From Humisphaera sp. (GTDB taxonomy: Bacteria > Planctomycetota > Phycisphaerae > Tepidisphaerales > Tepidisphaeraceae), in assembly GCA_025351525.1 (NCBI GenBank), contig JANXVV010000544.1:1-32377 (forward strand): a DNA stretch of 32,377 nt, read 5' to 3'. Of the stretch, positions 5,102 to 31,390 are shown piece after piece. The position numbers were made by a program, and so were the translations under genes. The notes under the pieces are model-generated. The model searched no databases. It was not told the origin of the DNA and was given only the letters and a program-made list of their open reading frames with translations. Each line of letters opens with the position of its first letter. Position 1 is the stretch's first letter.

Positions 5102-5240
5102 GTTGCTCCTGTAACCTTTCGACTTCCATGTCCACGACCGTAGTGAGGAATATGTCCAAAGCCGAACGAAACCTCTGCTCTTCATCCGGCGTCATGGGAC
5201 GACGAACAATGCGAATCACAGGGTGCTTGCGGGATGGCAC
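4953..5240 (-). CDS. Small ORF overlapping the recombinase start
   Basis: 95-aa ORF, MPSRKHPVIRIVRRPMTPDEEQRFRSALDIFL..., co-directional, overlaps the recombinase by ~150 bp. Confidence 0.3.
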   Translation of the reverse strand: MPSRKHPVIRIVRRPMTPDEEQRFRSALDIFLTTVVDMEVERLQEQHGQEHTIDRSEVRSHSPVQRREANQGHGSATEGDEPFHRQVPTHCRQGD

Positions 5241-12570: not shown

Positions 12571-12571
12571 G

Positions 12572-14443
12572 TCATTCTCCTCGATGCAAAGTGGGCTGAC
12601 CGAAGCCGTAGGGAACCAAGCCCTTCGTCCTCATCCAGTCGAGTGCTTTGAACCACCGCTCTGACGAAATCCGCTTCTTGGATTCATCCCAATTAGTGAG
12701 GACATCATTCACGATCTTGGCATCATCGAACGGAACTTTCTGAATGATGAAGTCATTCCACACCGCATACAGGGTCGCCACGATTTCTGCCTGCTCCGTC
12801 GTCATAGGCTTCAGGATGTTCACCAGTGCTGTGAACTTCTCCTCGAACGGCCCCCAGTAAGTGCCGAAGTAGGTCCGATGGCCGCCAACCTTCTCCAGTG
12901 CCTGAAACGACATGCGCCCGTCATGTCGAAATGGCTTGTACCAGCGTGATCGTTCAAGCTGGCTCTCGACCGAGCGGATCAACTGGTTATCAAATGGACC
13001 GGCTGCCGCACGACGATATTTGCTTCCGATCTCGGGAAGACCCAGATGATGCTCTGCGAGAAAAAGCGCCTTCTGGAATTTGATCTGGCCGAAGGTCTCA
13101 TGTGCGTGCAATCGGTCCACAATTTCGGCTGCGAGAACGGTTCTCCTGAAGTAAGGGTTTGCTTTGACTTTATGGGTTGATATTGGAACCGCCTCCTGCA
13201 CAATTATCATTCCAGTGACAGCGGACGAGATTAGCGATTGTCGGTATTCAACGAGCATTTCACTATGTCGGGAAACGGTTTCGATAAGCGCATCTAGCTG
13301 GCCCAATCGCCGATCAAGGAAACCGGCAATGGCTTGCTGCTCGTCAAGAGGAGGCTTTGAAATCGTAATTCGGTGCAGGTGATTGCGGTTTACACCCGGA
13401 ACCGCAGACTTATCCGAATCACTTGTGTACGGAATTGTCATCAGAAGGTAATACGCAAAACGAGGATGGTTGCCTTTGAAATCAACGACATACAATGTCG
13501 TGTTGAGAGGCCAATAGTCTGTATCGACGTAGAATACATCACCAATCGTGCCGTAGCGCCCAGTAATAACGCCCGGCCCTTTCGCCTTGGTCACGTTGTG
13601 CGTTCCTGAAATGCCCGCCGAGGAAATAATGGGAATATTGCCTGCACGCCTATCTTGCTGGGGCAAGTCGTGACCACGTTGAAGTTGAAGAAATCGTCCG
13701 AGATTTTGAATCGTCCAGTGCGCGGGCGTAGAACCAACCCAAGGAACCTGTGAATCGTTCATGGAGACGTTGCAGTTCAGCCCTTGTGTGACGGCGCATT
13801 GAATCATGGCTTTTCGTTTTTCACTGAGCACCTCGATCAATCGTCGCTTCTTGGCTATGAGTTGGTCGATCTGCGCCGTCTTGCGGTCCAGAAACGCAGC
13901 GATGGCCCGCTGCTCAGAAAGGGGAGGGACTGGAAAGAGCGCATTCGTTATATCGTCAGTGCTGAGACCATATCGGGTGATGCCGTTCGCCGAAACCCGG
14001 AACTGATCGGCCAGACCTTCAGCGGCAAATGCTCGGAAGAGATAGCCTCCAAAACTGACATCTGACTTCGGCCGAATGTGGGCAAGGTGGTATCCGCACA
14101 CCACACCATCCAGATCAACGGGTACGAACGCAGGAACGGCGATGTCGCTCCATTCTTCTGAGTCCTTGGTGATCAGAACATCGCCTGCCTTCAGCGTGAA
14201 TGTGGCGATCTGGCTGGCGGTGGCGGTAGCCTCCATGAAGGTCATGTTAGATGTGATGAAGTCGTTCTTGTACACATCGACGTAATTGCAAAGCCGGACG
14301 GCCTGTTCACCCTCAACGGTTTTCTTGTCCACATTGCTGGGCCGGACAGTAGCGACCCACTTGAGCTTCTTGATCTCCCAATGGGAAGGGACATCAAGCG
14401 TCCAAGGCAGGCCGATGGTCTTGTACGGGGGAGCCGATTTCAT
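12572..14443 (-). CDS. hsdS: Type I restriction enzyme, S subunit with C-terminal extra domain
   Basis: Two target-recognition halves each ending PPLSEQRAIAAFLDRKTAQID / PPLDEQQAIAGFLDRRLGQLD, plus a ~200-aa C-terminal extension. Start overlaps the hsdM stop by 4 bp. Confidence 0.92.
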   Translation of the reverse strand: MKSAPPYKTIGLPWTLDVPSHWEIKKLKWVATVRPSNVDKKTVEGEQAVRLCNYVDVYKNDFITSNMTFMEATATASQIATFTLKAGDVLITKDSEEWSDIAVPAFVPVDLDGVVCGYHLAHIRPKSDVSFGGYLFRAFAAEGLADQFRVSANGITRYGLSTDDITNALFPVPPLSEQRAIAAFLDRKTAQIDQLIAKKRRLIEVLSEKRKAMIQCAVTQGLNCNVSMNDSQVPWVGSTPAHWTIQNLGRFLQLQRGHDLPQQDRRAGNIPIISSAGISGTHNVTKAKGPGVITGRYGTIGDVFYVDTDYWPLNTTLYVVDFKGNHPRFAYYLLMTIPYTSDSDKSAVPGVNRNHLHRITISKPPLDEQQAIAGFLDRRLGQLDALIETVSRHSEMLVEYRQSLISSAVTGMIIVQEAVPISTHKVKANPYFRRTVLAAEIVDRLHAHETFGQIKFQKALFLAEHHLGLPEIGSKYRRAAAGPFDNQLIRSVESQLERSRWYKPFRHDGRMSFQALEKVGGHRTYFGTYWGPFEEKFTALVNILKPMTTEQAEIVATLYAVWNDFIIQKVPFDDAKIVNDVLTNWDESKKRISSERWFKALDWMRTKGLVPYGFGQPTLHRGE

Positions 14444-16365
14444 TCGACGACCCCTTTGAGCATCTCCTGAATCTCATTCTCCAGCATCTTGATCTCGGCC
14501 CCGATCTCCTTCAGGGGCCGCAGAGGCGTATACTGATAGAAGTGCCGGGTGAAAGGAATCTCGTAGCCCTTCTTCGTCTTCTCCTCGTCAATCCACGCAT
14601 CTGGAACATGGGGAAGAACTTCCCGTTTGAAGTAGTCGTGGATGTCTTCCTTCAACGGCACGTTCTCATTATCCCTCAGGTCGGCATCGGGTTCAGGGTT
14701 GCCTTTGGCGTCGGTGCAGATGTCGGCTGCTTCGTCCCGCTCGGACAGGGCTGAAAGGACCGCTTTGAACTGTCTGGGAGTGAGCGTGATCTTCTTGGTC
14801 TTGCAGTGTTCCTTCAGGCACTGGATGAACTCCTCTCGGTTCTTGAAGACTCCTTTCGCGCCCATCGGCTTGAGGGATGCGACAAGCTTCGGATCGTCCA
14901 ACCGGGCGAGGCGATCATCGGATGCCGCGAAGTTCAGGCGTAGTGGGCGCTCGACGGTGAGACGCCAATACCCGAAATCTTCGTTGTCGAAAATCTTGCA
15001 GAACTCACCCTCCTTGAAGTGGCAATATATCTGGGTGATCCGTTTGATCTGCTCCTCGGAAATCTCATTGCGCTTGTTGCCCAAGCTCTTCCGCATCTTG
15101 GTGGAGAAACTGACCGCATTGACGAGTTGGACTTTCCCCTTTCGCTTTCGACTCTTGCGATTGGTCACGATCCAGAGGTAGGTGCTGATGCCGGTGTTGT
15201 AGAAGAGTTGATCTGGCACGGCGACGATGGCCTCCAGCCAGTCGTTCTCGATGATCCATCGTCGGATTTCACTCTCCCCTGATCCGGCCCCACCAGTGAA
15301 CAGAGGAGAGCCGTTGAAGACGATGGACAGCCGTGAGCCGCCATGATCCTGTTTGAACTTCGAGATCATGTGTTGGAGGAACAGGAGCGAGCCATCACTG
15401 ACACGGGGAAGTCCGGCCCCGAAGCGCCCGCTCATGCCGAGGTTCTGGTGCTCGTCGGTGATGTACTGCTCGACCTTCTTCCACTCCACGCCGAACGGGG
15501 GGTTCGAGGCGAAGTAATCGAACTTTTCGCCAGCCAGACCGTCCTGCGTGAAGCTGTTTCCGAACTTGATGTTACTGGCATCCTCGCCCTTGATCAGCAT
15601 GTCACTTTTGCAGATCGCATAGGACTCGGGGTTCAGTTCCTGTCCAAACGTCTTGAGCGTGGCTGACGGATTGAGTTCGTGCAGGTAGTTTTCGGCCACT
15701 GAGAGGATGCCGCCAGTGCCGCACGCCAGATCATAGATGGTGCGGATGATCCCCTTTTTCCGAAGGCCGTCATCGTCTTCGGCGAAGAGAATGTTCACTT
15801 TGAGACGAATTACTTCACGGGGGGTAAAATGTTCGCCTGCTGTTTCGTTGGATTGTTCTGAAAACCGGCGAATCAGTTCCTCGAAGATGTACCCCATCTG
15901 GAGGTTGTTCACGGCGTCGGGGTGCATGTCGATCTCGATGAACTTCGACATCACCATGAATAGCAGATTGCCGGCGTCCAACCGGTCGATCTGATCGCCG
16001 AACTTGAACTTCTCAATGAAGATTTCGCGTGCGTTGGCCGAGAACCCAGTGATGTAATTGTTCAGGTTGGCGGCCAGATGTTCCTGATCACCGAGGAGGG
16101 ACTGGATGGTGAATTTGCTCAGGTTGTAGAAGGACTGGCCTGCCGTCTGGCAGAGGATCATGTCCCTCATCTTCTCGTCGGCGTGCTTCGGTAGCGCCTT
16201 GGCCTTCTCCAGCACCTTGGCCTTCGTTGGCTCCAGCACGCAATCCAGACGCCGCAGGACGGTGAGAGGCAGGATGACCTTGCCGTATTCGGACTGCTTG
16301 AAGTCGCCTCGCAGGAGGTCTGCTACGGACCAGATGAAGCCGACCTTTTCTTGGAAATTGTTCAT
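14440..16365 (-). CDS. hsdM: Type I restriction enzyme, M subunit (N6-adenine MTase)
   Basis: MNNFQEKVGFIWSVADLLRGDFKQSEYGKVILPLTVLRRLD, DLACGTGGILSVAENYL, FASNPPFGVEWKK. ORF extends upstream to 16407. Confidence 0.93.
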   Translation of the reverse strand: MNNFQEKVGFIWSVADLLRGDFKQSEYGKVILPLTVLRRLDCVLEPTKAKVLEKAKALPKHADEKMRDMILCQTAGQSFYNLSKFTIQSLLGDQEHLAANLNNYITGFSANAREIFIEKFKFGDQIDRLDAGNLLFMVMSKFIEIDMHPDAVNNLQMGYIFEELIRRFSEQSNETAGEHFTPREVIRLKVNILFAEDDDGLRKKGIIRTIYDLACGTGGILSVAENYLHELNPSATLKTFGQELNPESYAICKSDMLIKGEDASNIKFGNSFTQDGLAGEKFDYFASNPPFGVEWKKVEQYITDEHQNLGMSGRFGAGLPRVSDGSLLFLQHMISKFKQDHGGSRLSIVFNGSPLFTGGAGSGESEIRRWIIENDWLEAIVAVPDQLFYNTGISTYLWIVTNRKSRKRKGKVQLVNAVSFSTKMRKSLGNKRNEISEEQIKRITQIYCHFKEGEFCKIFDNEDFGYWRLTVERPLRLNFAASDDRLARLDDPKLVASLKPMGAKGVFKNREEFIQCLKEHCKTKKITLTPRQFKAVLSALSERDEAADICTDAKGNPEPDADLRDNENVPLKEDIHDYFKREVLPHVPDAWIDEEKTKKGYEIPFTRHFYQYTPLRPLKEIGAEIKMLENEIQEMLKGVVE

Positions 16366-16561
16366 TCGCAGTCTCGTCGGCGCGATACGGGGCCACGAAT
16401 GGGGCATACACCGGACTCACGCAGTCCAGAAGGTCAAAGTACACCGGGAGGGTTCCTCCACTCCGCGTGATCCGAAGCTCAAAATCGCGCAAGTGAAGAT
16501 TCTACGGGGACGTACATCGGGCGTACAGGGGGATTGGAACGATGGCCGTATGGGGCCGCCG

Positions 16562-18171: not shown

Positions 18172-19386
18172 TCATACGGCCGTATTTGAGGGAGAGTAGA
18201 CCAGCGTCTTCATCGCCTTCTCAGCGTCAGGGTCGAACAGTTTGATGTAAAGGTTGAGGATGTCACTGTCTTTGTGTCCCATCCAGCCCAGTGCCTGCTT
18301 GTATGCGACATTGTTCCTCGCCAGCATGCTGGCGAAAGCATGACGGAATGTGTGAATCTTGTACTGCTCGGGATTCGGGAATTTGCACCTCTTGCAAAGC
18401 CGTTTCAGCGATTTGAGCAGTTTGTCACCGTTGAGCGGCCTTCCACCATTGGGATACTTCTTAGATGGGCGCTGCGAGAACATTCGCCCCTCACGAGGAC
18501 CGGGAACTTCGTCCAGAATCTGTCGAAGTGACGGATTGACGGGAATGCGACGGTTGGTCTTCCCTTTCGTCCTGCCCGATGAGCCACCTCTCTGGATCGT
18601 GACCCAACCATGATCTCCCTGCTTAAAATCGAAGTCCGACCATTCCAAATCTCGGACCTCTCCGAATCTTAACCCGAGATATGAAAATACGGCGAAAATC
18701 ACCCGTTCGTGATCTTTGCAGGCGTTCTCCAACAAAACGGACACCTGCTCAGGGGTGAAACATGGCTGCGGCGACGATTCGGCTTCCTCAATCTCCTCCC
18801 CGACGATTGGATTGACTGCCAGCATGGGTGGCTTTGTTTTGACGGTGGCGAATTTGAACCACTGCTTGATGATGGTCAGGCGATCTCCCCGTGTCTTCCC
18901 ATGTAATCCGGTCTTCGGCATCCCCGCTCTAGGCTTACACTTTCTCTGCTGCATCATGAGTTCGTTGAATGCCCAAAAGTCTTGGGCGTTCACAGTATCG
19001 GGATGCAACCGCTTGCGCCTTTTGGCGAAGTCAATGAAATCCGTAAGGACAACTTTGTACTTTTCGATGGTCTTCCCGGCTCGACCCTTCGACCGCAGGA
19101 AAGCGATGTATGGGTCGAACATCTCCTGCCACCCAACACGGCGTTGAACATGACGCTCTTCACCCCGCTGGAGTCGTTGATGAATGACATGGGCGGCACG
19201 TTGGGCTGCCATTTTGTTGGTGGTCTTCAGCGGTTCGTGGAGCCGCTGGCCCTGATGGCTATAGGCAGCGTGCCACTTCTTGCTCACTTTGATCTTCCCG
19301 CTCTTGGCGTCCTGTTGGAAACGGTGGCCGATGTAGATGATCGGGTCTTCGGTGGCTGGGACAGGTTCTCGGTCTTTGAGTTGCAT
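18172..19386 (-). CDS. Tyrosine recombinase/integrase of the island
   Basis: FSYLGLRFGEVRDLEWSDFDF (R), HTFRHAFASML (HxxR), LGWMGHKDSDILNLYIKL (GH...Y); SAM-like N-terminal domain. Confidence 0.92.
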   Translation of the reverse strand: MQLKDREPVPATEDPIIYIGHRFQQDAKSGKIKVSKKWHAAYSHQGQRLHEPLKTTNKMAAQRAAHVIHQRLQRGEERHVQRRVGWQEMFDPYIAFLRSKGRAGKTIEKYKVVLTDFIDFAKRRKRLHPDTVNAQDFWAFNELMMQQRKCKPRAGMPKTGLHGKTRGDRLTIIKQWFKFATVKTKPPMLAVNPIVGEEIEEAESSPQPCFTPEQVSVLLENACKDHERVIFAVFSYLGLRFGEVRDLEWSDFDFKQGDHGWVTIQRGGSSGRTKGKTNRRIPVNPSLRQILDEVPGPREGRMFSQRPSKKYPNGGRPLNGDKLLKSLKRLCKRCKFPNPEQYKIHTFRHAFASMLARNNVAYKQALGWMGHKDSDILNLYIKLFDPDAEKAMKTLVYSPSNTAV

Positions 19387-19404: not shown

Positions 19405-19680
19405 TCAGGAGAAGAGGTGTTTAACAAAACGGGGTAGCCAGAAGCGAAGCGGCTTGCCTCGCGCAACGCAGTCAGCGAAGTCGCCCTCGGAGACCTTCCG
19501 TTTGAGGGTGGATGGCTTCAGCCCTGCAAGCTTGGCGGCCTTCTCCAACGACAGGATCGGTGGGTACTGGTCGGCGAGTGGCTTGAAGGCGTCTTCGATT
19601 TCGTGCGTGGACAGCCTGACGGCAGACCGCCTTGGCGTGGCGTGATCGGCGGGGCGATGATGTGCGGACACTGGTGACAA
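19405..19680 (-). CDS. Excisionase-like (AlpA/MerR-type HTH) protein
   Basis: 91-aa ORF with LSLEKAAKLAGLKPSTLKRKVSEGDFADCVARGKPLRFWLPRF, immediately upstream of and co-directional with the integrase. Confidence 0.65.
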   Translation of the reverse strand: MSPVSAHHRPADHATPRRSAVRLSTHEIEDAFKPLADQYPPILSLEKAAKLAGLKPSTLKRKVSEGDFADCVARGKPLRFWLPRFVKHLFS

Positions 19681-19875: not shown

Positions 19876-19896
19876 CAACGGAGAGGGGGAGATTCG
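19876..19896. repeat. Right att core repeat, tRNA 3'-end-like
   Basis: caacggagagggggagattcg, identical to 2239-2259; continues 'aactc', giving the tRNA T-loop complement gattcgaactc. Confidence 0.8.
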
Positions 19897-20021: not shown

Positions 20022-20246
20022 CTACTCAGAGTCCTCGATCATTACCCGAACTTTGTTGCTCTTGCTGTACGGAATCGAAATCTCAACACGTCGCCCATCT
20101 TCGGCGGTCGCCGAGATGAGAAGGCGTGTCGGGGGTGCGCCCCAGTCGTCAGTGAGGAGCTGCTCAATCATCTCCTTGCCATTCTCGAAATCAAAATCCT
20201 GTGCACCGCCATCTACGAGCGAAACTGACATTCGAATGTTCTGCAT
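20022..20246 (-). CDS. Small protein downstream of the caspase-like gene
   Basis: 74-aa ORF, MQNIRMSVSLVDGGAQDFDFENGKEMIEQLLTDDWGAPPTRLLISATAEDGRRVEISIPYSKSNKVRVMIEDSE; co-directional, 53-bp gap. Confidence 0.6.
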   Translation of the reverse strand: MQNIRMSVSLVDGGAQDFDFENGKEMIEQLLTDDWGAPPTRLLISATAEDGRRVEISIPYSKSNKVRVMIEDSE

Positions 20247-20299
20247 GGTACTCCAACTTCTTTAGCAGAGGGGGACGACAACACCCACGCCGTGGCTTA

Positions 20300-21073
20300 T
20301 TACGATGCAAACACGGCAAACGGGAAATACGGACCACTCTTCGGCTTCTCGATGTAGGGCTTTTGCTTGCCCGCGCGACGGCGTGTAGTTTCAGGAGATG
20401 CCACATCGTGCGCCACCACCACCGACATAGCCACGTTGTTTCTCCACGAGGTCTCCGCTACTTCCCCCGCCCACTCGTCCGCGCATCCGATTACACTCGA
20501 CGTGTAGTGACCGCCCACACGTTCATCATCACCAGATTTCTCGGGTGGCGTCGAACTGTGAAGGATAACCGCCTCGTTACCAGCCTTTACAATCTCCTGA
20601 TCGAAAAGCGACCGGCAGAGTTGCCCCACTGGTTTACGTTTGACCTCTGCGCGCGAAAGATTCAAGCTGCGAAGTTCGGCAACCTTTTCAAGTGCGGATT
20701 CATTATGGATCTCCCGGCAACAGTCGAGAATGATCGTCCTTTTCGCACCACCGATCAGAAGTTCCAACGAGCTCAGTTCCTCGCCTTTTCGAAGTGTAAG
20801 CACCGTTGCATTGTCTTTGGATGAGAACCATCCATGTCCGGCGAAACCAATGAACAGATAGTCGGCAGATGACATCTCCTTCACGAGTCGTCGTACTTCG
20901 TCCCTTGATGGACGCTCACGAGCAACAATCTCTTGTGCGAACCACCACCCGCCATGCGCGGCGTTGAGGAATCGGTCGTAGTTGCGCATGTCAGCGTAAA
21001 CGCCCTTGCAATAGTTCTCCGCGCCGGCTTCGCCGGGATTAGAGATTAGCAATGCTCGCCGCGTGACAGCCAT
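20300..21073 (-). CDS. Caspase-like (clan CD, C14-type) peptidase
   Basis: Catalytic His in YLFIGFAGHGWF, catalytic Cys in RTIILDCCRE, and a later AVILHSSTPPEKSGDDERVGGHYTSSVIG strand/loop as in bacterial caspase homologues. Confidence 0.85.
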   Translation of the reverse strand: MAVTRRALLISNPGEAGAENYCKGVYADMRNYDRFLNAAHGGWWFAQEIVARERPSRDEVRRLVKEMSSADYLFIGFAGHGWFSSKDNATVLTLRKGEELSSLELLIGGAKRTIILDCCREIHNESALEKVAELRSLNLSRAEVKRKPVGQLCRSLFDQEIVKAGNEAVILHSSTPPEKSGDDERVGGHYTSSVIGCADEWAGEVAETSWRNNVAMSVVVAHDVASPETTRRRAGKQKPYIEKPKSGPYFPFAVFAS

Positions 21074-21117
21074 AAGTTCTCCAAAGAAAAGAGCACACCT
21101 CAGCCGAACACAACTCG

Positions 21118-21939
21118 CTATTTCTTCTCTGACCTCTTCTGTGCGGCTTTGTTCAACGTCGTTTCAACATGTTCGATGATACCGGATGCCAATCGCTCAC
21201 TCGCACCGGCGACGAAACATGCCAATGCGATCCCATGTCGGTTTCGGAGCTGGGGTAGAACCAACCCAGAGCGAATCGCGCACAGTACAATGATTGCGCC
21301 AATCACACCAACAGCGATCCTCGCTGCGCCTTCCAATCGGTGAATCGCCGCACCAGCAGCGGGATCGAGTGGCGCACGCCCGACGCGAAGTAGGATTGAA
21401 AGTAGCGCGCCAGTTGCTCCCGCCATCCCAGCAGTCAGAATGTCCGCTTTCGCGTCATCGGGTGGGGTATACATCCGAGCATATAACGATGCTGCCGCCC
21501 AAGTCGCACCGACGAACGCTATAGTCGCCCATACACTTGCCCACACATACCACTGCCTCGCGTGTTCATGGTTTCGGGCGGTGATGAACTCTTCTGCCTT
21601 GCCCAGCAGTGATTGCGCGCCTTTCATGTCTCCATCGAGAGCGACGCACATGGATTCGCCAAGAATAGAGCGAAATGCTCGCCTGATAGATTCCGATAGG
21701 TGATCTATCGGCACGGCTTCAAGGCAGGTGATTCGACCTTGGATCTTTCCAGGATCGACCTTCTGCGCGTCGAGTAACTTCTCGTGTTCGGGCGTATTCT
21801 CCCAATCAACTTCCAAGCTTTTGTCCAGAAACACAATGAAGTTCATGTTCCGGCGTAGTAGTACGTGGATAGCGGCATCATGTCGCTGCCAGAGCATCTC
21901 GTCAGGGGTATGCGAAGTCATCTCAGCCATTTGCGTCAT
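21118..21939 (-). CDS. Multi-spanning membrane protein
   Basis: 273 aa; soluble N-terminal half, then hydrophobic segments WYVWASVWATIAFVGATWAAASLYA, ILTAGMAGATGALLSILL, IAVGVIGAIIVLCAI and HGIALACFVAGASERLA. Start overlaps the Res stop by 4 bp. Confidence 0.75.
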   Translation of the reverse strand: MTQMAEMTSHTPDEMLWQRHDAAIHVLLRRNMNFIVFLDKSLEVDWENTPEHEKLLDAQKVDPGKIQGRITCLEAVPIDHLSESIRRAFRSILGESMCVALDGDMKGAQSLLGKAEEFITARNHEHARQWYVWASVWATIAFVGATWAAASLYARMYTPPDDAKADILTAGMAGATGALLSILLRVGRAPLDPAAGAAIHRLEGAARIAVGVIGAIIVLCAIRSGLVLPQLRNRHGIALACFVAGASERLASGIIEHVETTLNKAAQKRSEKK

Positions 21940-24662
21940 TTAGAGAGCACCATCAAGGAGGCACTTTTCTCGTACATCGCCGCCAATCCCGCCAGCGTCT
22001 TGGCGTCGTCGATCTGCTCATGGGGGATGAGCAGGTACTTCCACGGCTTGCCGCCGCCGTGTTTCGTGGCATGTTCACACCACGTTGCCGCCGCTCGGGC
22101 TTTGGCTTCGACTGACGATGCGTGCATCTCATCGGATGACTTGCTCTCGCAGATGTACTTCGCCGTCTCCGTCTCGACCACGAAATCGGGCTCGTAGACC
22201 TCGCCTTTCGCGTAGTCGATTTTTAGTGCGTCCCTCGGGGGCTTGCACCATTTTAGAACGCTGTGGTCCTTCTCGAAGATCGACGCCAGCCGCCGCTCCG
22301 TGTCCGAGTCGAACTTTTGCACCTGATACAGGCATTTACTGAACCCGCCGAACAGCATCCCTCGGATGTTCCGCTTCATCTCAACGGGCGTCCGGTAGTC
22401 GCGGACCTCATCATCGGCGGCGGTGCCGTTCACGGGACGCATGGTTGTGAACCCTTTGGAGACGTGAACCTCGTATGCCGTCGCCTTCTCGAAGTAATGG
22501 GCTTCCATCTGGCTGTAGATGTTCCGAACGATGAGCTGCTGATGGACCAGCAGAACGTTCAGCACGTCATCGTCCTCGGGAAGATTGGTTTTCAAGCTGG
22601 CCACGGCTTGTTGCGCCAGCTTGTAAAGCAGGTCGGCGTGTTCGTCGTAGTTGATGTCCGGATAGTCGATCAGTCCGCGAACGATGTAATCCTCGAACTT
22701 CTCCTCAACGGCGATGGTCGAGCCGCTTTCCAGCGTATGCCGCTGTCCGTCGCCAAGGTTTTGGATGAGCACCCGCTGACGAATGGGCTTCAAGGATTTG
22801 ATCGGGTCGGTATCCAAGTCGAAATCCTTGAACCCGCTCGTCACGTCGCCGGTGGGGACGACGACGATGCGGGGGATGTCGATGGACATGTCGATGTGCA
22901 GATCGACCGTCTTGGCGACGACTTGCGCGAAATCCACCTGGGTCTTGAACTGCTCGAACTCGGTCTGCGTCCCGCCCTGCGCGGCGATGGCGGCTTGCAC
23001 CTGCTCGATAATCTTCTGCTGAACTTCGGGCTTTCGCAGATCAGCCGACGATGGAAGACGCTCGAACTGCTTGAGCACCTGATACGTCACCTGCGCCGCC
23101 TTCTGCTCCTCGGGCTTGGCGAAAAGGGTCGGCTGCGGCTGGGCATTGCCGGTCCCAATCGACTGAATGCCGAGCCGCTGGGCGACGTTCGACTCCATCA
23201 CCACGACCTTCGACTTCGTATCGGGGATGTCGCGCCCGATGACGATGCCCTTGCGGATGATCGAGTTCGGGTCGTTGGCGTGGTCGATGATCTCCTGAAA
23301 CTTATCGTGCGAGATGATCGTCAGCCGGTCTACCGCCGCGACCCCGGTTCGCTTGCCATAGGGCAGGCGCAGTCCGCGACCGATGGATTGTTCCACAAGC
23401 GTCCGCGAGTTCGCCGCCCGCAAGGGGACGATGGTGTACAGGTTCGTCACGTCCCAGCCCTCTTTGAGCATGTTGACGTGGACCACGATCTCGATGGGGT
23501 TGTTCGGGTCTTCGACCGTGAGCAACTGCTGAACGATGTCGTCCTTCTCTTCGCCTTTGGTTTGCGAATGGACGGTGATGACCTTTCCCTTGTACTGGCC
23601 ATCAAAGAACGCCTGATCTTCGATCAGCTTGACGAGCGCGTTGGCATGGTCAGTGTCCTTCGCCACAACCAGCATGAACGGCTTCACGCGGCGTTCGCTG
23701 AAATCACGGGCGTAAACGTCGAGTTGGGTCTTCGCCTCCTCATGCACGCGGATGCCGTCTTCCAGCTTCAGGCGTTCGAGTCCTTCCTCGTCATACGCCC
23801 GCGCGTCGAAGTTTTCCCGCGTGGCGACCGCCGGCTCTTTCACGAAACCATCATTGAGTGCCGCCGACAGCGGGTACGAGTAGACGACGTTTTTGAACGG
23901 CGTACTCCCCTTGCCGCTCTCGACCTGCGGCGTTGCGGTCAGTTCCAGCCCGATGATCGGCTTGAGCTCGTTTATCGCCTTGACGCCCGCCGACGCGCGG
24001 TAGCGGTGGCTTTCGTCCATGAGCAGCACGAGGTCGTCGAGTTTCGACAGGTACTCGAAGTAGCTCTCGCCGATGTATTCGTGCAGCCGCTTGATGCGTG
24101 GCTGCTTGTCGCCGCGTACCTCGGAGTTGATCTTGCTGATGTTGAAGATGTTGACGTGAATCGCGCCGGGCGCACCGGGATCGAACAGCCGCCCCTGGCG
24201 AACCGGCACGCCAACGTCGCCGCGAACACCGCGCCCATCTTCATAGGTGTCGCCGGTGATGATCTCGGGCGGGTTCAGGGCAAAGTCCGAGATGCCTTGG
24301 AACACATACTTGGGTGTGTTCGGCGTAAAGTCGGCGATCAGCTTGTTGTAGATCGTCAGGTTCGGGGCGAGCACGAAGAAATGTCGGATGCCTTCGGCTT
24401 TGTAAAGGTAGCTGATGAACGCGCCCATCAGGCGTGTTTTGCCGACGCCCGTGGCCAGCGAGAAGCAGAGCGACGGGAACTCACGCTCGAAATCCTCCAC
24501 TTGCGGATACTTCGCCCGGATCGACGCCAACGATGCCTTGGCGTCCGCACCCTTCTCAAGTGGGATCAGATCGCAGACCTCCGCCAGTATCTCCAGTGAC
24601 TCGCGTTGCGGCTGTCGCAGGCTCAACCGATTGGCGACCATGTTCAGAATCGACTGGTTCAT
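21936..24662 (-). CDS. Type III restriction enzyme, Res subunit
   Basis: SLATGVGKTRLMGAFI (Walker A), VLLMDESHRYR, ELTATPQ, and C-terminal EPDFVVETETAKYICESK (PD-(D/E)xK). Confidence 0.9.
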   Translation of the reverse strand: MNQSILNMVANRLSLRQPQRESLEILAEVCDLIPLEKGADAKASLASIRAKYPQVEDFEREFPSLCFSLATGVGKTRLMGAFISYLYKAEGIRHFFVLAPNLTIYNKLIADFTPNTPKYVFQGISDFALNPPEIITGDTYEDGRGVRGDVGVPVRQGRLFDPGAPGAIHVNIFNISKINSEVRGDKQPRIKRLHEYIGESYFEYLSKLDDLVLLMDESHRYRASAGVKAINELKPIIGLELTATPQVESGKGSTPFKNVVYSYPLSAALNDGFVKEPAVATRENFDARAYDEEGLERLKLEDGIRVHEEAKTQLDVYARDFSERRVKPFMLVVAKDTDHANALVKLIEDQAFFDGQYKGKVITVHSQTKGEEKDDIVQQLLTVEDPNNPIEIVVHVNMLKEGWDVTNLYTIVPLRAANSRTLVEQSIGRGLRLPYGKRTGVAAVDRLTIISHDKFQEIIDHANDPNSIIRKGIVIGRDIPDTKSKVVVMESNVAQRLGIQSIGTGNAQPQPTLFAKPEEQKAAQVTYQVLKQFERLPSSADLRKPEVQQKIIEQVQAAIAAQGGTQTEFEQFKTQVDFAQVVAKTVDLHIDMSIDIPRIVVVPTGDVTSGFKDFDLDTDPIKSLKPIRQRVLIQNLGDGQRHTLESGSTIAVEEKFEDYIVRGLIDYPDINYDEHADLLYKLAQQAVASLKTNLPEDDDVLNVLLVHQQLIVRNIYSQMEAHYFEKATAYEVHVSKGFTTMRPVNGTAADDEVRDYRTPVEMKRNIRGMLFGGFSKCLYQVQKFDSDTERRLASIFEKDHSVLKWCKPPRDALKIDYAKGEVYEPDFVVETETAKYICESKSSDEMHASSVEAKARAAATWCEHATKHGGGKPWKYLLIPHEQIDDAKTLAGLAAMYEKSASLMVLSK

Positions 24663-26365
24663 TTCGCACCCCCATTTTCATTGCCAAAGAGAGACGGTTC
24701 GGCGACCCGCGACTTCCGTTGCTTGCGCTGTTCGCCTGGCGGAAGTTTTGGCAGCGGCGGCGCATCGAGATCGTCGGCTGGCTGCGCCTTGGGTAATGCC
24801 GCAATTTGGAGGCTGTAGTCATCCTTGCCCCATTCGCACCGGGACATGACCGCCTTGGGGATCTTTTTCAGCGTCAGGTTGGGGAACTCCGTCGCCCCGG
24901 CGCGGAACGCGCCGCAGCAGATCAAGAGCGACCGATCTTCACCGACTTCATCGCTCAACTTGGCAAGCATTTGTCGCGTGATCGTTTGCGTCGTGATGTA
25001 GATGTAATCTCGCTCGGTCGAACGCCCATGCTGCCAGTAAATCTCGTTGCTGGGCGCGTACGCGAAACCTTCCAGCTTACACATCGCCTCGGCGAGCATC
25101 GCCGCGTTGTATTCTTTGCTGACGACCCAGTTGCCGAACTTGTCCTTTTCCAGCAGGGAGGGCGCGAGGCGGTAGTAGCGAAATCCGCCACCCCCTTTCC
25201 ACCCCGTGGCTTGGGTTATTCCACCTAAATCAGTTCCGCTAATAACCTTCGTCAAGCGAGGCAGAATGTATGTATCGCAGTGTTCTCCCAACTCCACCAT
25301 AATCCATTGCCGTGCCATCTTGTGCGCAACAGCACCTGTAGTTCCTGACCCCGCAAATGAATCCAAGACGATCTCGCCAGGCGAAGTAGCAATCTCCAAG
25401 ATGCGAGCTATGACGGCTTCCGTCTTGGGCGTTGCAAAGGGGACTCCGAATAGAGCCTTCGATTCCAACATTGCACTCTGTGTATGTCCGACCTCCTCGT
25501 GCAGCCAGACACTGCGAGGAACCACCGGCTGCGCGACATCCAGAAACCGCTTCAACCTCGGCATTCGTGCTTTACCGTCCTTGCCCCAATACAGTAGGTT
25601 GTTTCGCACGTTTTCGGCATGCGTCTCGGGACCGCATCGCCATGTCACGGTTCCACTCGGCCAGATCTCCTCGTTCGTATTCGGATTGGTTATCCCGTAG
25701 AACAGATTTGGGCGTTCATTCTTTGATTTATTGCTTGTATAGGTGACTGAGTTCCAGCTTCCACGCGGATCATTGTCTGGATTTGTATAGTAGGCATTTT
25801 GAGAATCCGTGCGTGTTAGCCGATTGGGACGCCATGACTGCTTATCTCGGGCGTAGAGAAGTACAAAATCATGGTCATTGCTTATCCACTTTGCATCGTT
25901 AGCGGGCGATGCTTTGCGCTGCCAGATAATCGTCTGGACATGATTAGCACGACCGAAAATCTCATCGCAAATCACCTTGAGATAGTGAGCCTCATTATCG
26001 TCAACAAAAATCCAGACTGTCCCATTGAGAGCAAGTAGACGCCGTATCAAATCCAAGCGATCCCGCATCATGCTCAACCAAAGTGAGTGCTCGATTCCGT
26101 CGTCATAATGTTCAAACGCCGAGCCCGTGTTGTATGGCGGGTCAATGCACACGCATTTGATCTTGCCTGTGAACTCCTGTTCAAGTGCCTTCAAAGCCAG
26201 CAGGTTGTCGCCGAAGATGAGGCGGTTATCGAAAAGATCGTGGTCCGTAACGCGCTGCGCGGCATGGTAAGATTTCGACGGGTCTTCGAGCAGAATGCGC
26301 GGCTCCAGCCGGGGGCGGTTTTCTTTACCGATCCAAGTGAGTTCGAGTTTCGTCTTTCCAGCCAT
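24659..26365 (-). CDS. Type III DNA methyltransferase, Mod subunit
   Basis: CIDPPYNTGSAFEHYDDGIEHSLWLSMMRDRL (DPPY) and IVLDSFAGSGTTGAVAHKM (motif I). 4-bp overlap with Res. Confidence 0.93.
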   Translation of the reverse strand: MAGKTKLELTWIGKENRPRLEPRILLEDPSKSYHAAQRVTDHDLFDNRLIFGDNLLALKALEQEFTGKIKCVCIDPPYNTGSAFEHYDDGIEHSLWLSMMRDRLDLIRRLLALNGTVWIFVDDNEAHYLKVICDEIFGRANHVQTIIWQRKASPANDAKWISNDHDFVLLYARDKQSWRPNRLTRTDSQNAYYTNPDNDPRGSWNSVTYTSNKSKNERPNLFYGITNPNTNEEIWPSGTVTWRCGPETHAENVRNNLLYWGKDGKARMPRLKRFLDVAQPVVPRSVWLHEEVGHTQSAMLESKALFGVPFATPKTEAVIARILEIATSPGEIVLDSFAGSGTTGAVAHKMARQWIMVELGEHCDTYILPRLTKVISGTDLGGITQATGWKGGGGFRYYRLAPSLLEKDKFGNWVVSKEYNAAMLAEAMCKLEGFAYAPSNEIYWQHGRSTERDYIYITTQTITRQMLAKLSDEVGEDRSLLICCGAFRAGATEFPNLTLKKIPKAVMSRCEWGKDDYSLQIAALPKAQPADDLDAPPLPKLPPGEQRKQRKSRVAEPSLFGNENGGAK

Positions 26366-26373
26366 TACCGCAC

Positions 26374-27216
26374 CTACTTCTTGTTGCTGCTCAACATGTA
26401 CAGGATAAAGCTGACGATTCCGAGGATCGACGACAGGAATGTGATGATCGCCATTACGGGGTGATCTCGTGACAACTCCATGAAGTACCCGAGCGTCGTC
26501 CCATAGATTTCCAGCCTTCGCGCGTTCGTCTTCAACGTGCCTGATGCCAGACGATTCACGATGTTGCCGATAACATCCACCTTGCGGAGCGTCGATTGGT
26601 GGAGTTTGACGTAATCCTTCTGAACAAATGCGTCGGCTTCGGTTTGCCCGGTGAGGAAATCTTTGTCGCTGATGCTGTTCATTTTCATCAGCATCGTGAG
26701 ACGGGGGTGACCGGCGTATGTGGGGCTGTAAAGGGAAATCAGCAGCCGTGCAAAGTCGTACAGGTTGCTCTCATGGACGTCCATGGGCGTGCCGCCAAGT
26801 ACCCGATAGCGGTGCGCGATTGCGGGGAATCCGTAGTTCGTGTCGCGCATGTTCCAGTGCAGCCAGTAGGAGTCCTTCTTCTCGGCGACATACTTGTAGA
26901 ACTCGTCGAGCATCTCCCGTTCAAGGTCGTTGTACCGCGCTTCAATCTGATCGCGTGCGACGTGATCCCGCTCGGCAACGTGATGAATCGAAAATGAGAC
27001 GGTCTGTCCCGTTGCAAGGTTGCGGACGGCGATGGACGTTATTCGAGGCGATGCGCCATCCGGTCGGTCGTAAAAGCTCTCGCAAGAGTAGTGGATGATT
27101 ACGGTGTTCTTGGAATGCGCAAGGAGATTCGCCAAGTCCTTCTTTGCTTCTAATCGTCGTCGGTGTCGTTCGCTCGCTGATCCCATAGGTTCCGCCGCCC
27201 TTATTTCAATGCCCAT
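26374..27216 (-). CDS. C-terminally membrane-anchored protein, possible RNase H-fold/DEDD-like domain
   Basis: VIIHYSCESFYDRPDGASPRITSIAVRNLATGQTVSFSIH...YWLHWNMRDTNYGFPAI..., then a C-terminal hydrophobic segment VMAIITFLSSILGIVSFILYML. Starts inside the helicase 3' end. Confidence 0.6.
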   Translation of the reverse strand: MGIEIRAAEPMGSASERHRRRLEAKKDLANLLAHSKNTVIIHYSCESFYDRPDGASPRITSIAVRNLATGQTVSFSIHHVAERDHVARDQIEARYNDLEREMLDEFYKYVAEKKDSYWLHWNMRDTNYGFPAIAHRYRVLGGTPMDVHESNLYDFARLLISLYSPTYAGHPRLTMLMKMNSISDKDFLTGQTEADAFVQKDYVKLHQSTLRKVDVIGNIVNRLASGTLKTNARRLEIYGTTLGYFMELSRDHPVMAIITFLSSILGIVSFILYMLSSNKK

Positions 27217-30032
27217 TGGAACGAACAGATTGGCGAAACCTCGGGCTGCATCGTCAGCTGACGTTCGATGTCCCCGATCAGATCGTTTCGGCGGTCGTCA
27301 ACCTTGTCTTGCTCCAGATACAACTCCGCACGCTTCTTCTTTCGGGTCGATTCAAGGTCTTTGATGCGCCGCTGCGCTTCGAGTTTCTCTGCCAGCCCGG
27401 CGGCGAGTGCGCTTGCTTTGCGGGCTTCGCGGATGGCGAGGTCGATCTCCTTGATCTCGCGCTCCAGACCTTGCTTGAGGTCGTCCGACCAGCGGTCGAG
27501 CTTCTCGACCTCCTCATCGAAGAACTTCGCGTTGCGTTGGCTGACTTCACCCAGCCGCGCCTTGACCAGCGCATCGCGGCACGCCGTGAGGTCGATGGGT
27601 TCCGATGGCGCGGCACCGGCGATCCGCCCGGGTAGTGCAAATAGTTTTCGCGCCGCTTCCTCGTCGAGCATTTCGCCTGCGTCGGTCTGGGCGGACAGCA
27701 GAAGGAACTCCTCCGTATCGAGCGATGAGACCGTGAGCTTCGACACTTCGAGCCAGCCCGAGACGCCGACGAGCGGCTTGAGTATGCTGACGACCTGACG
27801 ATGAGCGGTGTAGTCGAAGATGACTGCGGACGGCGTAAGCGAGCGGGTGATCGCCCATTCGACCAGCGTGAGGGCGAGCGGATGATCTTGGCGGTAGAAG
27901 GTATCGCCGTTGCGCTCGGCGACTTTCCAATCGAGATGGTAATGCCCGGCTGGGGCGTCGGAGCCGGTGTATTCGAAGCGCGGTTGATGCGGGTCGAAAG
28001 ACGCCTGACCATCCAGTTCGGCACGCGTGAGCGCGAGGAGCGTTCGCTCCCGGTCGGACAAGCTTTCGAGCGTCTTGTCCTTGTTGATCCGCAGCCGCTC
28101 GGCGACATCCTGATCGAAATGCTCAAGCAGCGTTTGCCGCGTGACCGCCATGCGCGCCTTGATCTGCTCATCGAGCTCGGCTTGTAGCTGGTCGAAGGCG
28201 CGCTTGATCTCCTCTTGATTGCGGCAGGTTTGATAAACGTCGGCGATGCGGCGTTCGATGTCCACGCCGGACTCAATGGTTCCGAGGACTTCATCACTGG
28301 CACCGAAGACGCCGTTGAACAGGCTGAACTTCTCACTCAATCGTTCATAGACGCGCTGATCCGCGTGGTTGCGGGTGTTGATGAAGTTCAGCACCACGAC
28401 ATCGTGCTTCTGCCCGTACCGATGGCAGCGACCGATCCGCTGCTCGATGCGCTGTGGGTTCCACGGCAGATCGTAGTTGACGACGAGGGATGCGAACTGG
28501 AGATTCACGCCCTCGGCGGCGGCTTCCGTGGCGATCAGGATCGACGCGGTCTTCTCGAAGTGCTCGACGATGGCGGCTTTCATGTCCACCGGCTTGGAGC
28601 CCGAGACGATCTCCTGACCTTCGTGACGTTTCACCCAGTCCTGATACGTGGCGCGGGAGGATGGATCGTCGTTCGATCCATTCATCATCACGAGCTGGTT
28701 CTCAAAGCCGTTGCGCGACAGCAACTCGAACAGGTACGCCTGCGTGCGCCGGGACTCCGTGAAGATGACCGCCTTGCGATTGGCACCCAGGGCGACGGCG
28801 CGGTTGAGCGCGGTAGCCAGTGCGGGGAGAAGGGCTTGCCCCTTCGCATTGGTCTTGATGGCGGTTGCCATCGCCCCGAAGCGTTGCAGCTCCGCCAGTT
28901 CGTCTTTCAGCAATGCCGGGTCGATGACGGGGGCATCTTCTTCACCAGGATCGCCATCGGCTTCCGCCATTTCGTCGGCGAGTTCGTCGATGCCTTCGAG
29001 GTCTTCGTCATCGAACACGCGAATCTGCTCGCCCAGGCGTTCGAGCCGCCGGGTGAGTCCCGCGATGGTTCCGGCGACGGCGAAGGTCGAAGACGCCAGA
29101 AGTTTCCTCATGACCAGCGTGATCAGATGACGCTGGCTTTGCGGCAACGCGAGGAGTTTCTCACGCTGGAGGTATGCCGAGATACTCTCGTACAGGGCGA
29201 ACTCTTCATCGCTCGGACTGAAATCCTGCGTGATGGGGATGCGCTTGGTGAAGGGGATGTACTCGACGACCTGCTTTCGAAGCGTGCGGTTGCAGACTGG
29301 CTTGAGGCGATCCCGAAGCAAGGTGTTGCGGATGGTGTCGTCGCCGGATTTCACGAACTGATCGCGGAAGGATTGCGCATCGCCGAAGAGATGATCGTCG
29401 ATGATGCTGACGAGACCGTAGAGCTCCATGAGCGAGTTTTGCAGCGGCGTGGCGGTCAGGAGTAGCTTCGGCGCGGCATGGATCGCCGTGACGATGCTCC
29501 GCGCCATCTTGGAGTCGTTCTTGAAGACGTTGCGGAGGCGGTGCGCTTCGTCGATGACGACCGTATCCCAGCCGACGCGGCTGATTTCCGCACTGCGCGC
29601 GGCGGCGAACTGATAAGAACAGATCAGAAGGGTATCGGTTCGGTCGAACGGGGAGGGTCGCCCAGCGGCGATTTCGGCGGCGTAGGCGCGCGAATCCAAA
29701 ACGTTCGTGGGCAGGTAAAACTTCTCGCGGAGTTCCTGCTGCCATTGCTTGCGAAGGGTTGCGGGCACGATCAGAAGGATGCGCCGCCGCCGTTCCGCCC
29801 ATCGCTGGGCGAGAACGATGCCGGCTTCGATGGTTTTGCCGAGCCCGACCTCATCGGCGAGCAGGACGCCACGAGACAGCGGCGAGCGGAGGGCAAAAAG
29901 AGCCGCCTCGACCTGATGTGGGTTGAGATCGACGCGCGAGTTGGCGATGGAACGAGACAGGTTCTCGACGCTGCCCGAGGAGCCTTTCAGCGTGAGCAGA
30001 TGCGCCCAGTATTTGGAATGGAATGGCGTCAT
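27201..30032 (-). CDS. SNF2/RapA-like helicase
   Basis: LADEVGLGKTIEAGIVL, VIDEAHRLRN, LLTATPLQNS, RIEQRIGRCHRYGQKHDVVVLNF, coiled-coil C-terminus. Start placed at MTPFHSKYWAHLL (ORF open to 30179). Confidence 0.9.
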   Translation of the reverse strand: MTPFHSKYWAHLLTLKGSSGSVENLSRSIANSRVDLNPHQVEAALFALRSPLSRGVLLADEVGLGKTIEAGIVLAQRWAERRRRILLIVPATLRKQWQQELREKFYLPTNVLDSRAYAAEIAAGRPSPFDRTDTLLICSYQFAAARSAEISRVGWDTVVIDEAHRLRNVFKNDSKMARSIVTAIHAAPKLLLTATPLQNSLMELYGLVSIIDDHLFGDAQSFRDQFVKSGDDTIRNTLLRDRLKPVCNRTLRKQVVEYIPFTKRIPITQDFSPSDEEFALYESISAYLQREKLLALPQSQRHLITLVMRKLLASSTFAVAGTIAGLTRRLERLGEQIRVFDDEDLEGIDELADEMAEADGDPGEEDAPVIDPALLKDELAELQRFGAMATAIKTNAKGQALLPALATALNRAVALGANRKAVIFTESRRTQAYLFELLSRNGFENQLVMMNGSNDDPSSRATYQDWVKRHEGQEIVSGSKPVDMKAAIVEHFEKTASILIATEAAAEGVNLQFASLVVNYDLPWNPQRIEQRIGRCHRYGQKHDVVVLNFINTRNHADQRVYERLSEKFSLFNGVFGASDEVLGTIESGVDIERRIADVYQTCRNQEEIKRAFDQLQAELDEQIKARMAVTRQTLLEHFDQDVAERLRINKDKTLESLSDRERTLLALTRAELDGQASFDPHQPRFEYTGSDAPAGHYHLDWKVAERNGDTFYRQDHPLALTLVEWAITRSLTPSAVIFDYTAHRQVVSILKPLVGVSGWLEVSKLTVSSLDTEEFLLLSAQTDAGEMLDEEAARKLFALPGRIAGAAPSEPIDLTACRDALVKARLGEVSQRNAKFFDEEVEKLDRWSDDLKQGLEREIKEIDLAIREARKASALAAGLAEKLEAQRRIKDLESTRKKKRAELYLEQDKVDDRRNDLIGDIERQLTMQPEVSPICSFQWALK

Positions 30033-30315: not shown

Positions 30316-30942
30316 TCAATCGTCAGGCGCGAATCGAGCGTTCTTGGGTAAGTGGTTCTCCGCCTCGTATGCACTTCGTTCTTCATAGAAGTAATCTACG
30401 GGCGTGTACAGTCGGCTGAGGTAGTCGAGCAGCTGATGCGTGGTTTCATGCAGTGCTCGCACGTTGACGTGTCGGAGGGTCGGGTGGGTTCGCTGAAGCT
30501 TCGAGCTGAAGGGGTACCGGAACGAGTCGGACGACGGGTCATGTTCTTCAACATTGGCGATCAACGCCTTCACGGCTTCGGTCTCCTCGGCGTTGAGCGG
30601 AAAATCCGATCCACACAGCGACTTCGTGCGCGCATAAACGTCATTCCACAGGTGTCCGAGCCGATGGGTCTTGGCAAAGCCCTTGTCCCCCGTCGCGGCG
30701 TAGTTGCTCTTCCACGCCAAGTCCTTTAGCAGCAGTTCGCATGAGTGGCGGTAAAGGAAACAGATCGCGTAAACGTGACCGTCGAGGGTTCTCGGCTCGT
30801 TGACGGCGCACATCAGCAAGGCATCCGCCGACTCCAGAAAGCATTGCGCGAGCTCACCGAACTGCATGTAGTTGTCGATGCAGGCATTGTTATGCCAATC
30901 GGGATGTGCTTCAAACGGATCGGGCGGTTGCGTGGGCGTCAT
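30316..30942 (-). CDS. HEPN-like all-helical protein
   Basis: Start MTPTQPPDPFEAHPDW. GHVYAICFLYRHSCELLLKDLAW...KTHRLGHLWNDVYARTKSL resembles HEPN/AbiV-type helical domains. Confidence 0.5.
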   Translation of the reverse strand: MTPTQPPDPFEAHPDWHNNACIDNYMQFGELAQCFLESADALLMCAVNEPRTLDGHVYAICFLYRHSCELLLKDLAWKSNYAATGDKGFAKTHRLGHLWNDVYARTKSLCGSDFPLNAEETEAVKALIANVEEHDPSSDSFRYPFSSKLQRTHPTLRHVNVRALHETTHQLLDYLSRLYTPVDYFYEERSAYEAENHLPKNARFAPDD

Positions 30943-31051
30943 TCGGTCCTTTCGATCATCTACATCCTGGGACCATGTATTTATGCACTCGACCGCCGTG
31001 GCATCCGCGATCACCCATCCAAGATTCCAGGCGCGGTTGGCGCGGGTCGAA

Positions 31052-31390
31052 TCAACGCGCGGTCGGCGGCGGCAACTGTCCCGCATCGGCGTCGAGAGTG
31101 TAGATGATTTCCCGTTCGGAATGAACGGCGTCGGCGATGTAGCCAAGGAACATTTCCGCATTCTCCCGGATAAACTGTTCCTCGTCGGCGGCTTGCGCCG
31201 GCAGTGATTCGCAGAGCGATGTCACCAACTGGCGCATCGTCATGTCCAGCAACATCGCCGGCGCGCCGGGGAGGATGGCATGGGCGGTGGCTTTGGGATC
31301 GGCGAACACCCATCCGTCCGCAGACCAGCCAACATCGGCGGCGATCACGCCGGATTCGTTCGAAAAACGAATGATAAGGTACGGCTCCAT
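31052..31390 (-). CDS. Hypothetical protein
   Basis: 112-aa ORF in a compact minus-strand series (MEPYLIIRFSNESGVIAADVGWSADGWVF...). Confidence 0.5.
   Translation of the reverse strand: MEPYLIIRFSNESGVIAADVGWSADGWVFADPKATAHAILPGAPAMLLDMTMRQLVTSLCESLPAQAADEEQFIRENAEMFLGYIADAVHSEREIIYTLDADAGQLPPPTAR

Follow-up and report, generated by a model that had tools for sequence, protein, structure and literature searches.

A SNF2-containing type III restriction-modification operon of Humisphaera sp. likely to carry two embedded immunity modules, one of them a caspase-membrane protein pair

Type III restriction-modification (R-M) systems with an extra helicase, such as Eco86II and BspHIV, are treated in passages of PMC8259958, according to which, in more than 500 genomes, the gene immediately preceding mod codes for a helicase-like ATPase; this third-gene ATPase proved dispensable for methylation and was not observed in the purified Eco86II enzyme. 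Another line of work concerns immunity genes nested in other defence operons: guilt-by-embedding has been cited and DarTG2 shown within type I R-M (PMC12255303), the HEC and PDC candidates of PADLOC derive from embedding (PMC10855318), and backup effectors occur within BREX loci (PMC12839542). Here we analyse a run of seven minus-strand open reading frames (ORFs) at positions 20022-30032 of contig JANXVV010000544.1 of Humisphaera sp. (assembly GCA_025351525.1, positions 1 to 32,377; this whole stretch of 32,377 nucleotides is called the window below), in which genes of a SNF2-family helicase and of the type III proteins Mod and Res are accompanied by accessory genes, further referred to as cargo. 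Sequence comparison makes it likely, in our opinion, that this is a mobile SNF2-Mod-Res operon carrying two embedded, independently mobile immunity modules, namely a single gene of a DnaQ-like protein and a gene pair coding for a caspase and a transmembrane (TM) protein.

The core of the operon consists of the genes of the SNF2 helicase (943 amino acids (aa), 27201..30032; Pfam SNF2-rel_dom, 118 bits), the Mod methyltransferase (24659..26365; PADLOC MTase_III, 701 bits; PF01555, 143 bits) and the Res helicase-nuclease (21936..24662; PADLOC REase_III, 776 bits; ResIII and RE_endonuc domains). Mod and Res are adjacent and co-oriented, and SNF2 lies 5' of mod with one ORF in between, so that the order ATPase gene, Mod, Res and their common strand are shared with Eco86II and BspHIV as presented in the passages of PMC8259958; these passages mention no variable cargo between the genes, whereas the window operon has such cargo. 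The domains recognized by Pfam in the SNF2 protein are of helicase/ATPase type only, without a nuclease motif. Its relatives, about 44-60% identical to it, precede Mod and Res on many plasmids, and SNF2-Mod-Res loci with SNF2 homologues are also carried by E. coli chromosomes. Judged by gene order and by description, the core is thus the known helicase-containing type III arrangement, likened here to Eco86II and BspHIV, and the initial annotation was right to regard the clustering of a SNF2 helicase with type III Mod and Res as known. A different order was seen in a Schaalia locus (L084), where Mod-like and Res-like genes come before SNF2, not after it. As to the functions of the core, Mod would protect the host DNA and Res would cut unmodified DNA, while SNF2 would probably assist on DNA.

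The cargo occupies two places. Between SNF2 and Mod lies the gene of a 280-aa protein, for which a DnaQ-like exonuclease fold with a degenerate active site and a C-terminal TM helix are predicted (26374..27216, likely start at 27186), and Res is followed by the gene of a membrane protein with about four TM helices (21118..21939), the gene of a caspase of peptidase family C14 (20300..21073) and, finally, an ORF of 74 aa (20022..20246). Reading of the sequence bore out the tight packing of all seven minus-strand ORFs. As annotated, the SNF2 stop codon and the ATG of the 280-aa protein overlap by 16 nt, 8 bp separate this gene from Mod, and ATGA overlaps occur at the Mod/Res and Res/TM junctions. 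The gaps before the caspase gene and the small ORF are short, as had been noticed, but they measure 44 and 53 bp, the previously given 45 and 54 being coordinate differences. The caspase gene has a good ribosome-binding site (RBS), TTTGGAGAACTTATG. A site scan found no terminator-like sites between the operon genes on the minus strand, and the sole promoter-like match in the operon falls within Mod. Co-transcription of the seven-ORF run is plausible, and all its genes would then be transcribed from the operon promoter.

Variability of the cargo was assessed in a census based on 80 loci from a scan with one genome per species, six plasmid loci and the window. Those with SNF2 followed by a Mod scoring more than 150 bits to the window Mod were taken as SNF2+Mod loci (n=38), and ORFs of at least 100 aa were considered as cargo; the ORF calls were mechanical, and 6 of the 76 cargo ORFs outside the window lie on the opposite strand. 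At least one such ORF is present between SNF2 and Mod in 28 of the 38 loci. Where Res follows downstream (27 loci), ORFs are found between Mod and Res in seven cases, and contiguous co-oriented ORFs 3' of Res in fourteen. The cargo is highly diverse, 58 homology clusters being needed to group its 79 ORFs. Pfam domains recognized among 61 of the cargo ORFs included OLD/AbiEii-type ATPases, DUF4276, AIPR, SIR2, Abi_2, GmrSD and Schlafen, and relatives of HEC, PtuA and AriA were matched in PADLOC. Two E. coli strains with closely similar SNF2 genes (identity to the same query, 96.7% and 97.2%) differ in their cargo: one has Abi and AIPR, the other an insertion sequence, an Abi of different length and a small ORF. 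The combination of such similar SNF2 genes with different cargo indicates that the slot turns over quickly.

The pair of the TM protein and caspase genes is found apart from Mod and Res. Homologues of the TM protein were searched for in genomes from several phyla, and all six strong copies, including that of the window, adjoin a caspase of the window subfamily, in either gene order. The TM gene precedes the caspase gene in G133/L007, between copies of a recombinase sequence, and in G1264/L168, beside integrase-like remnants; the caspase gene comes first in G875/L159, with a 4-bp overlap, and in G235/L023, where the TM gene is split by a transposase and the pair is located upstream of an HsdR-like gene. 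In G1194/L169 (5532-9376) the TM gene stands between the genes of a degenerate caspase, which lacks the histidine of GHG, and of an intact one; next come the genes of a ThsB_TIR-like protein and of another caspase. A weaker TM relative (G1212/L170, 5258-7156) is a natural fusion of 632 aa, in which the TM region spans about 113-287 and is followed, at 349-624, by a caspase domain (PF00656, 91.9 bits) with the GHG and DSC motifs kept. No caspase was seen near four still weaker relatives (G018, G942, G1077, G1322) in the stretch read. The repeated adjacency and the natural fusion indicate that the TM protein and the caspase belong together. In the stretches examined in the five other genomes and around the fusion, neither Mod nor Res stands beside the copies, so that only the TM gene of the window adjoins Mod/Res; by these sequence neighbourhoods, the two genes are a module of their own, independent of Mod and Res.

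These data bear on the proposal of the initial annotation that the seven genes are one composite suicide system, in which failure of the restriction core, or sensing by SNF2, activates the caspase, and the latter a membrane killer. The unbroken packing, the ATGA overlap of Res and TM genes and the lack of terminator-like sites between the genes are what such a system would have. However, the pair resides in five other genomes, and as a fusion in one more, with no Mod or Res in the stretches examined; none of the 37 other SNF2+Mod loci has a homologue of the TM protein or the caspase; and the 280-aa protein is a free-standing prophage gene. The proposal was to stand or fall with the occurrence of TM/caspase homologues near Mod/Res in other genomes, and what we found largely goes against it; one pair elsewhere adjoins an hsdR-like gene. 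Triggering of the pair by restriction failure is not supported. We therefore rejected a single integrated suicide system and regard a dedicated composite of this kind as highly improbable. What is retained of the suggested combination is that the TM protein and the caspase go together; among the copies found, only that of the window has Mod and Res nearby. A search for the TM protein in 50 census genomes was empty as well, which is weak evidence.

The GC content at third codon positions (GC3), which is 0.56 for the TM gene, 0.58 for the caspase, 0.62 for Mod, 0.77 for SNF2 and 0.81 for Res, sets the pair apart from Res and SNF2 and fits a separate origin of the two genes. Several points weigh against the embedding of separately mobile modules. 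The GC3 of Mod also deviates from those of SNF2 and Res, and composition alone cannot split cargo from core; selection for coupling could account for the tight ATGA overlap of Res and TM genes; with six caspase-TM pairs and one fusion, the sample is small, leaving room for an occasional association with Mod/Res elsewhere; and the structural model of the TM protein is of low confidence (pLDDT 47.5), so that its role is judged from the sequence.

As for the proteins of the pair, the TM protein has three to four hydrophobic segments, from which, together with the low-confidence model, about four TM helices are predicted, and it contains conserved small-residue motifs, GAxGALxSxL and VAGxSER. It matches no family in PADLOC, NCBIfam or PHROGs, and none in Pfam above cutoff. 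The caspase belongs to the C14 peptidases (PF00656, 38.3 bits at a cutoff of 21.4), and its dyad, His80/Cys119, is invariant in six aligned caspases, within the GHG and DxCR motifs. The caspase has no match in PADLOC and none in phage records; viral scans revealed no relative of either protein, the automatic patterns being poor. Its only relatives on plasmids (26% identity) are those of Leptospira, located beside a DEAD helicase; in L005:7538-11069 and L006:8001-11075 a DEAD/DEAH helicase gene comes directly after that of the caspase, and then a small ORF, which is a different pairing.

We suppose that the two proteins could form a membrane-bound complex, which would stay quiet until triggered by infection or, possibly, by membrane damage; the released protease activity would then arrest or kill the cell, acting as a second layer of defence with a trigger of its own. 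Proteolysis-driven death upon infection would be the outcome. With regard to the division of labour, we lean slightly to the TM protein being a tether or sensor and the caspase the effector, by analogy with the EACC1 systems, because in the natural fusion a single polypeptide contains both parts and its His/Cys dyad is intact. Almost as likely, the TM protein is a pore-former activated by cleavage. Within the same operon architecture, it would then be the executioner, whose pore-forming or depolarising domain is freed by the caspase in a gasdermin-like manner. Its conserved pairing with the caspase and its bundle of about four helices with conserved GAxGALxSxL and VAGxSER motifs agree with this possibility, and membrane effectors have precedent in abortive infection. 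But similarity to gasdermins was not found, no cleavage site was identified, and one would less readily expect an enzyme to be fused to its own substrate; we entertain the executioner role tentatively, as a possibility short of probable.

The protein encoded between SNF2 and Mod provides another example of independent cargo. Its homologues begin at Met11 (27186), and for this reason the overlap with the SNF2 gene may merely reflect the choice of start codon. In PHROGs, the protein belongs with phrog_8766 (224 bits), there is a weak match to a DNA polymerase family, and PADLOC gives none. Relatives number 45 in viral contigs, with further ones in Streptococcus phages and six on plasmids, standing alone among mixed neighbours; by homology and gene context, it is a widespread free-standing gene of prophages and plasmids. 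Its AlphaFold model is good (mean pLDDT 86.7), and Foldseek points to DnaQ-like/DEDD exonucleases such as the T7 polymerase exonuclease and 3'hExo (probability 0.99), the support being modest (best E 0.0045, TM-score about 0.3-0.4). A DnaQ-like exonuclease fold is, consequently, predicted. According to our reading of the alignment, motif I (DxE) is not intact in the family and is represented by HY[S/A]C[E/Q]; since DxE is replaced by [S/A]CE or SCQ, exonuclease catalysis is uncertain. Hydropathy indicates a single hydrophobic helix at the C-terminus.

The 3' end of the operon borders on what is probably a neighbouring integrative element. A perfect 21-bp direct repeat, CAACGGAGAGGGGGAGATTCG, which resembles an att site, is present at 2239-2259 and 19876-19896 (no strand assigned) and flanks a stretch of 17.6 kb; this is the only perfect direct repeat of at least 18 bp in the window, and its second copy is about 125 bp from the operon end. 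The reverse complement of the repeat resembles a tRNA 3' end, and no tRNA gene was called near either copy. Just inside the second copy are an integrase (18172-19386) and a likely excisionase (19405-19680), and between the copies lie a large serine recombinase (3116-5185) and, beside the type III operon, a complete type I R-M system (HsdM, HsdS and HsdR, on the same strand, 9580-16407). With 623 aa, the HsdS of the latter is long, and its extended C-terminus resembles a MTase_I model. From this arrangement, the 17.6-kb stretch would be an element ending at the operon, with the repeats as its att sites. Elsewhere in the window, an ORF at 30316-31161, about 280 bp upstream of SNF2, gave a sub-threshold HEPN match (14 bits) and is possibly a further defence gene, and a Rhodopirellula-type DDE transposase of the ISAZ013 family is encoded at 114-1358, a hint of a planctomycete as the host.

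Proximity of this element raises the question whether the genes after Res merely adjoin an integration site and have no role in defence. Such passive accretion would be in line with the operon end abutting a repeat copy and the integrase, with the differing GC3, and with the last ORF, which may be spurious. This 74-aa ORF has no family match in PADLOC, Pfam, NCBIfam or PHROGs, and about 21% of simulations yield an ORF of this length by chance; only an upstream GGAG, a plausible RBS, and the GC content by codon position, both acceptable, speak for it, so that it is doubtful as a gene. On the other hand, the caspase and TM genes have stayed together in several phyla, with the catalytic residues intact and often in the vicinity of recombinases, of a ThsB_TIR-like protein or of an HsdR-like gene, and we consider passive accretion unlikely.

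Returning to the reading of embedded modules, a conserved caspase-membrane pair that is missing from the defence catalogue searched (PADLOC) is directly clonable and testable. In a common and unexplained SNF2 variant of type III systems, the slots for accessory genes are fixed while their contents vary greatly, and new defence genes may be sought there; the question is raised whether the SNF2 gene, or embedding itself, coordinates the accessory genes. A broader generalization, about as likely as not, would be that the pair is an undescribed immune module of two, sometimes fused, genes, widely but thinly spread, and that SNF2-type III operons generally act as docking sites, exchanging such modules.

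When set against other known systems, the window SNF2 is most similar to DrmD_b of DISARM (NF038318). Membership in DISARM was rejected, as the score of 707.7 bits is below the cutoff of 950 and, by best PADLOC match, none of the seven ORFs is drmA, drmB or drmC. In E. coli relatives, a helix-turn-helix gene before SNF2 is annotated as MAD1 of the MADS system; the window operon contains no other MADS genes. The EACC1-caspase systems (PMC7159879) likewise pair the gene of a small membrane protein with a caspase gene, and their membrane part was proposed as a tether or sensor (PMC7159879). Their partner, however, has one TM helix, in contrast to about four in the window protein, which has no NCBIfam match, and the window caspase is without the variable C-terminal domain; assignment to EACC1 was rejected, given 21 bits to NF047832 against a cutoff of 140 and a partner that is not single-TM. 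Bacterial gasdermins resemble the pair in that a caspase-like protease stands beside a putative membrane-acting partner, but gasdermin is soluble, while the partner here is a polytopic membrane protein. In architecture, the locus is like those of embedded defence genes (Hma-embedded candidates, PDCs, DarTG2 and those of BREX), where an operon of modification type likewise harbours accessory genes of immunity: the window cargo lies inside or at the end of the host defence operon and is found independently elsewhere. The host operon here is of SNF2-type III kind, and neither the caspase-TM nor the DnaQ-TM cargo has a counterpart in PADLOC-DB 2.0.0. The initial annotation was aware of no described system with the complete gene set; the SNF2-Mod-Res core and embedding are known. 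A paper on the caspase-TM gene pair was not found in the open-licence literature, and the module is apparently undescribed. The locus thus varies a known architecture, that of embedded defence, and what is most novel in it is the pair of caspase and TM genes.

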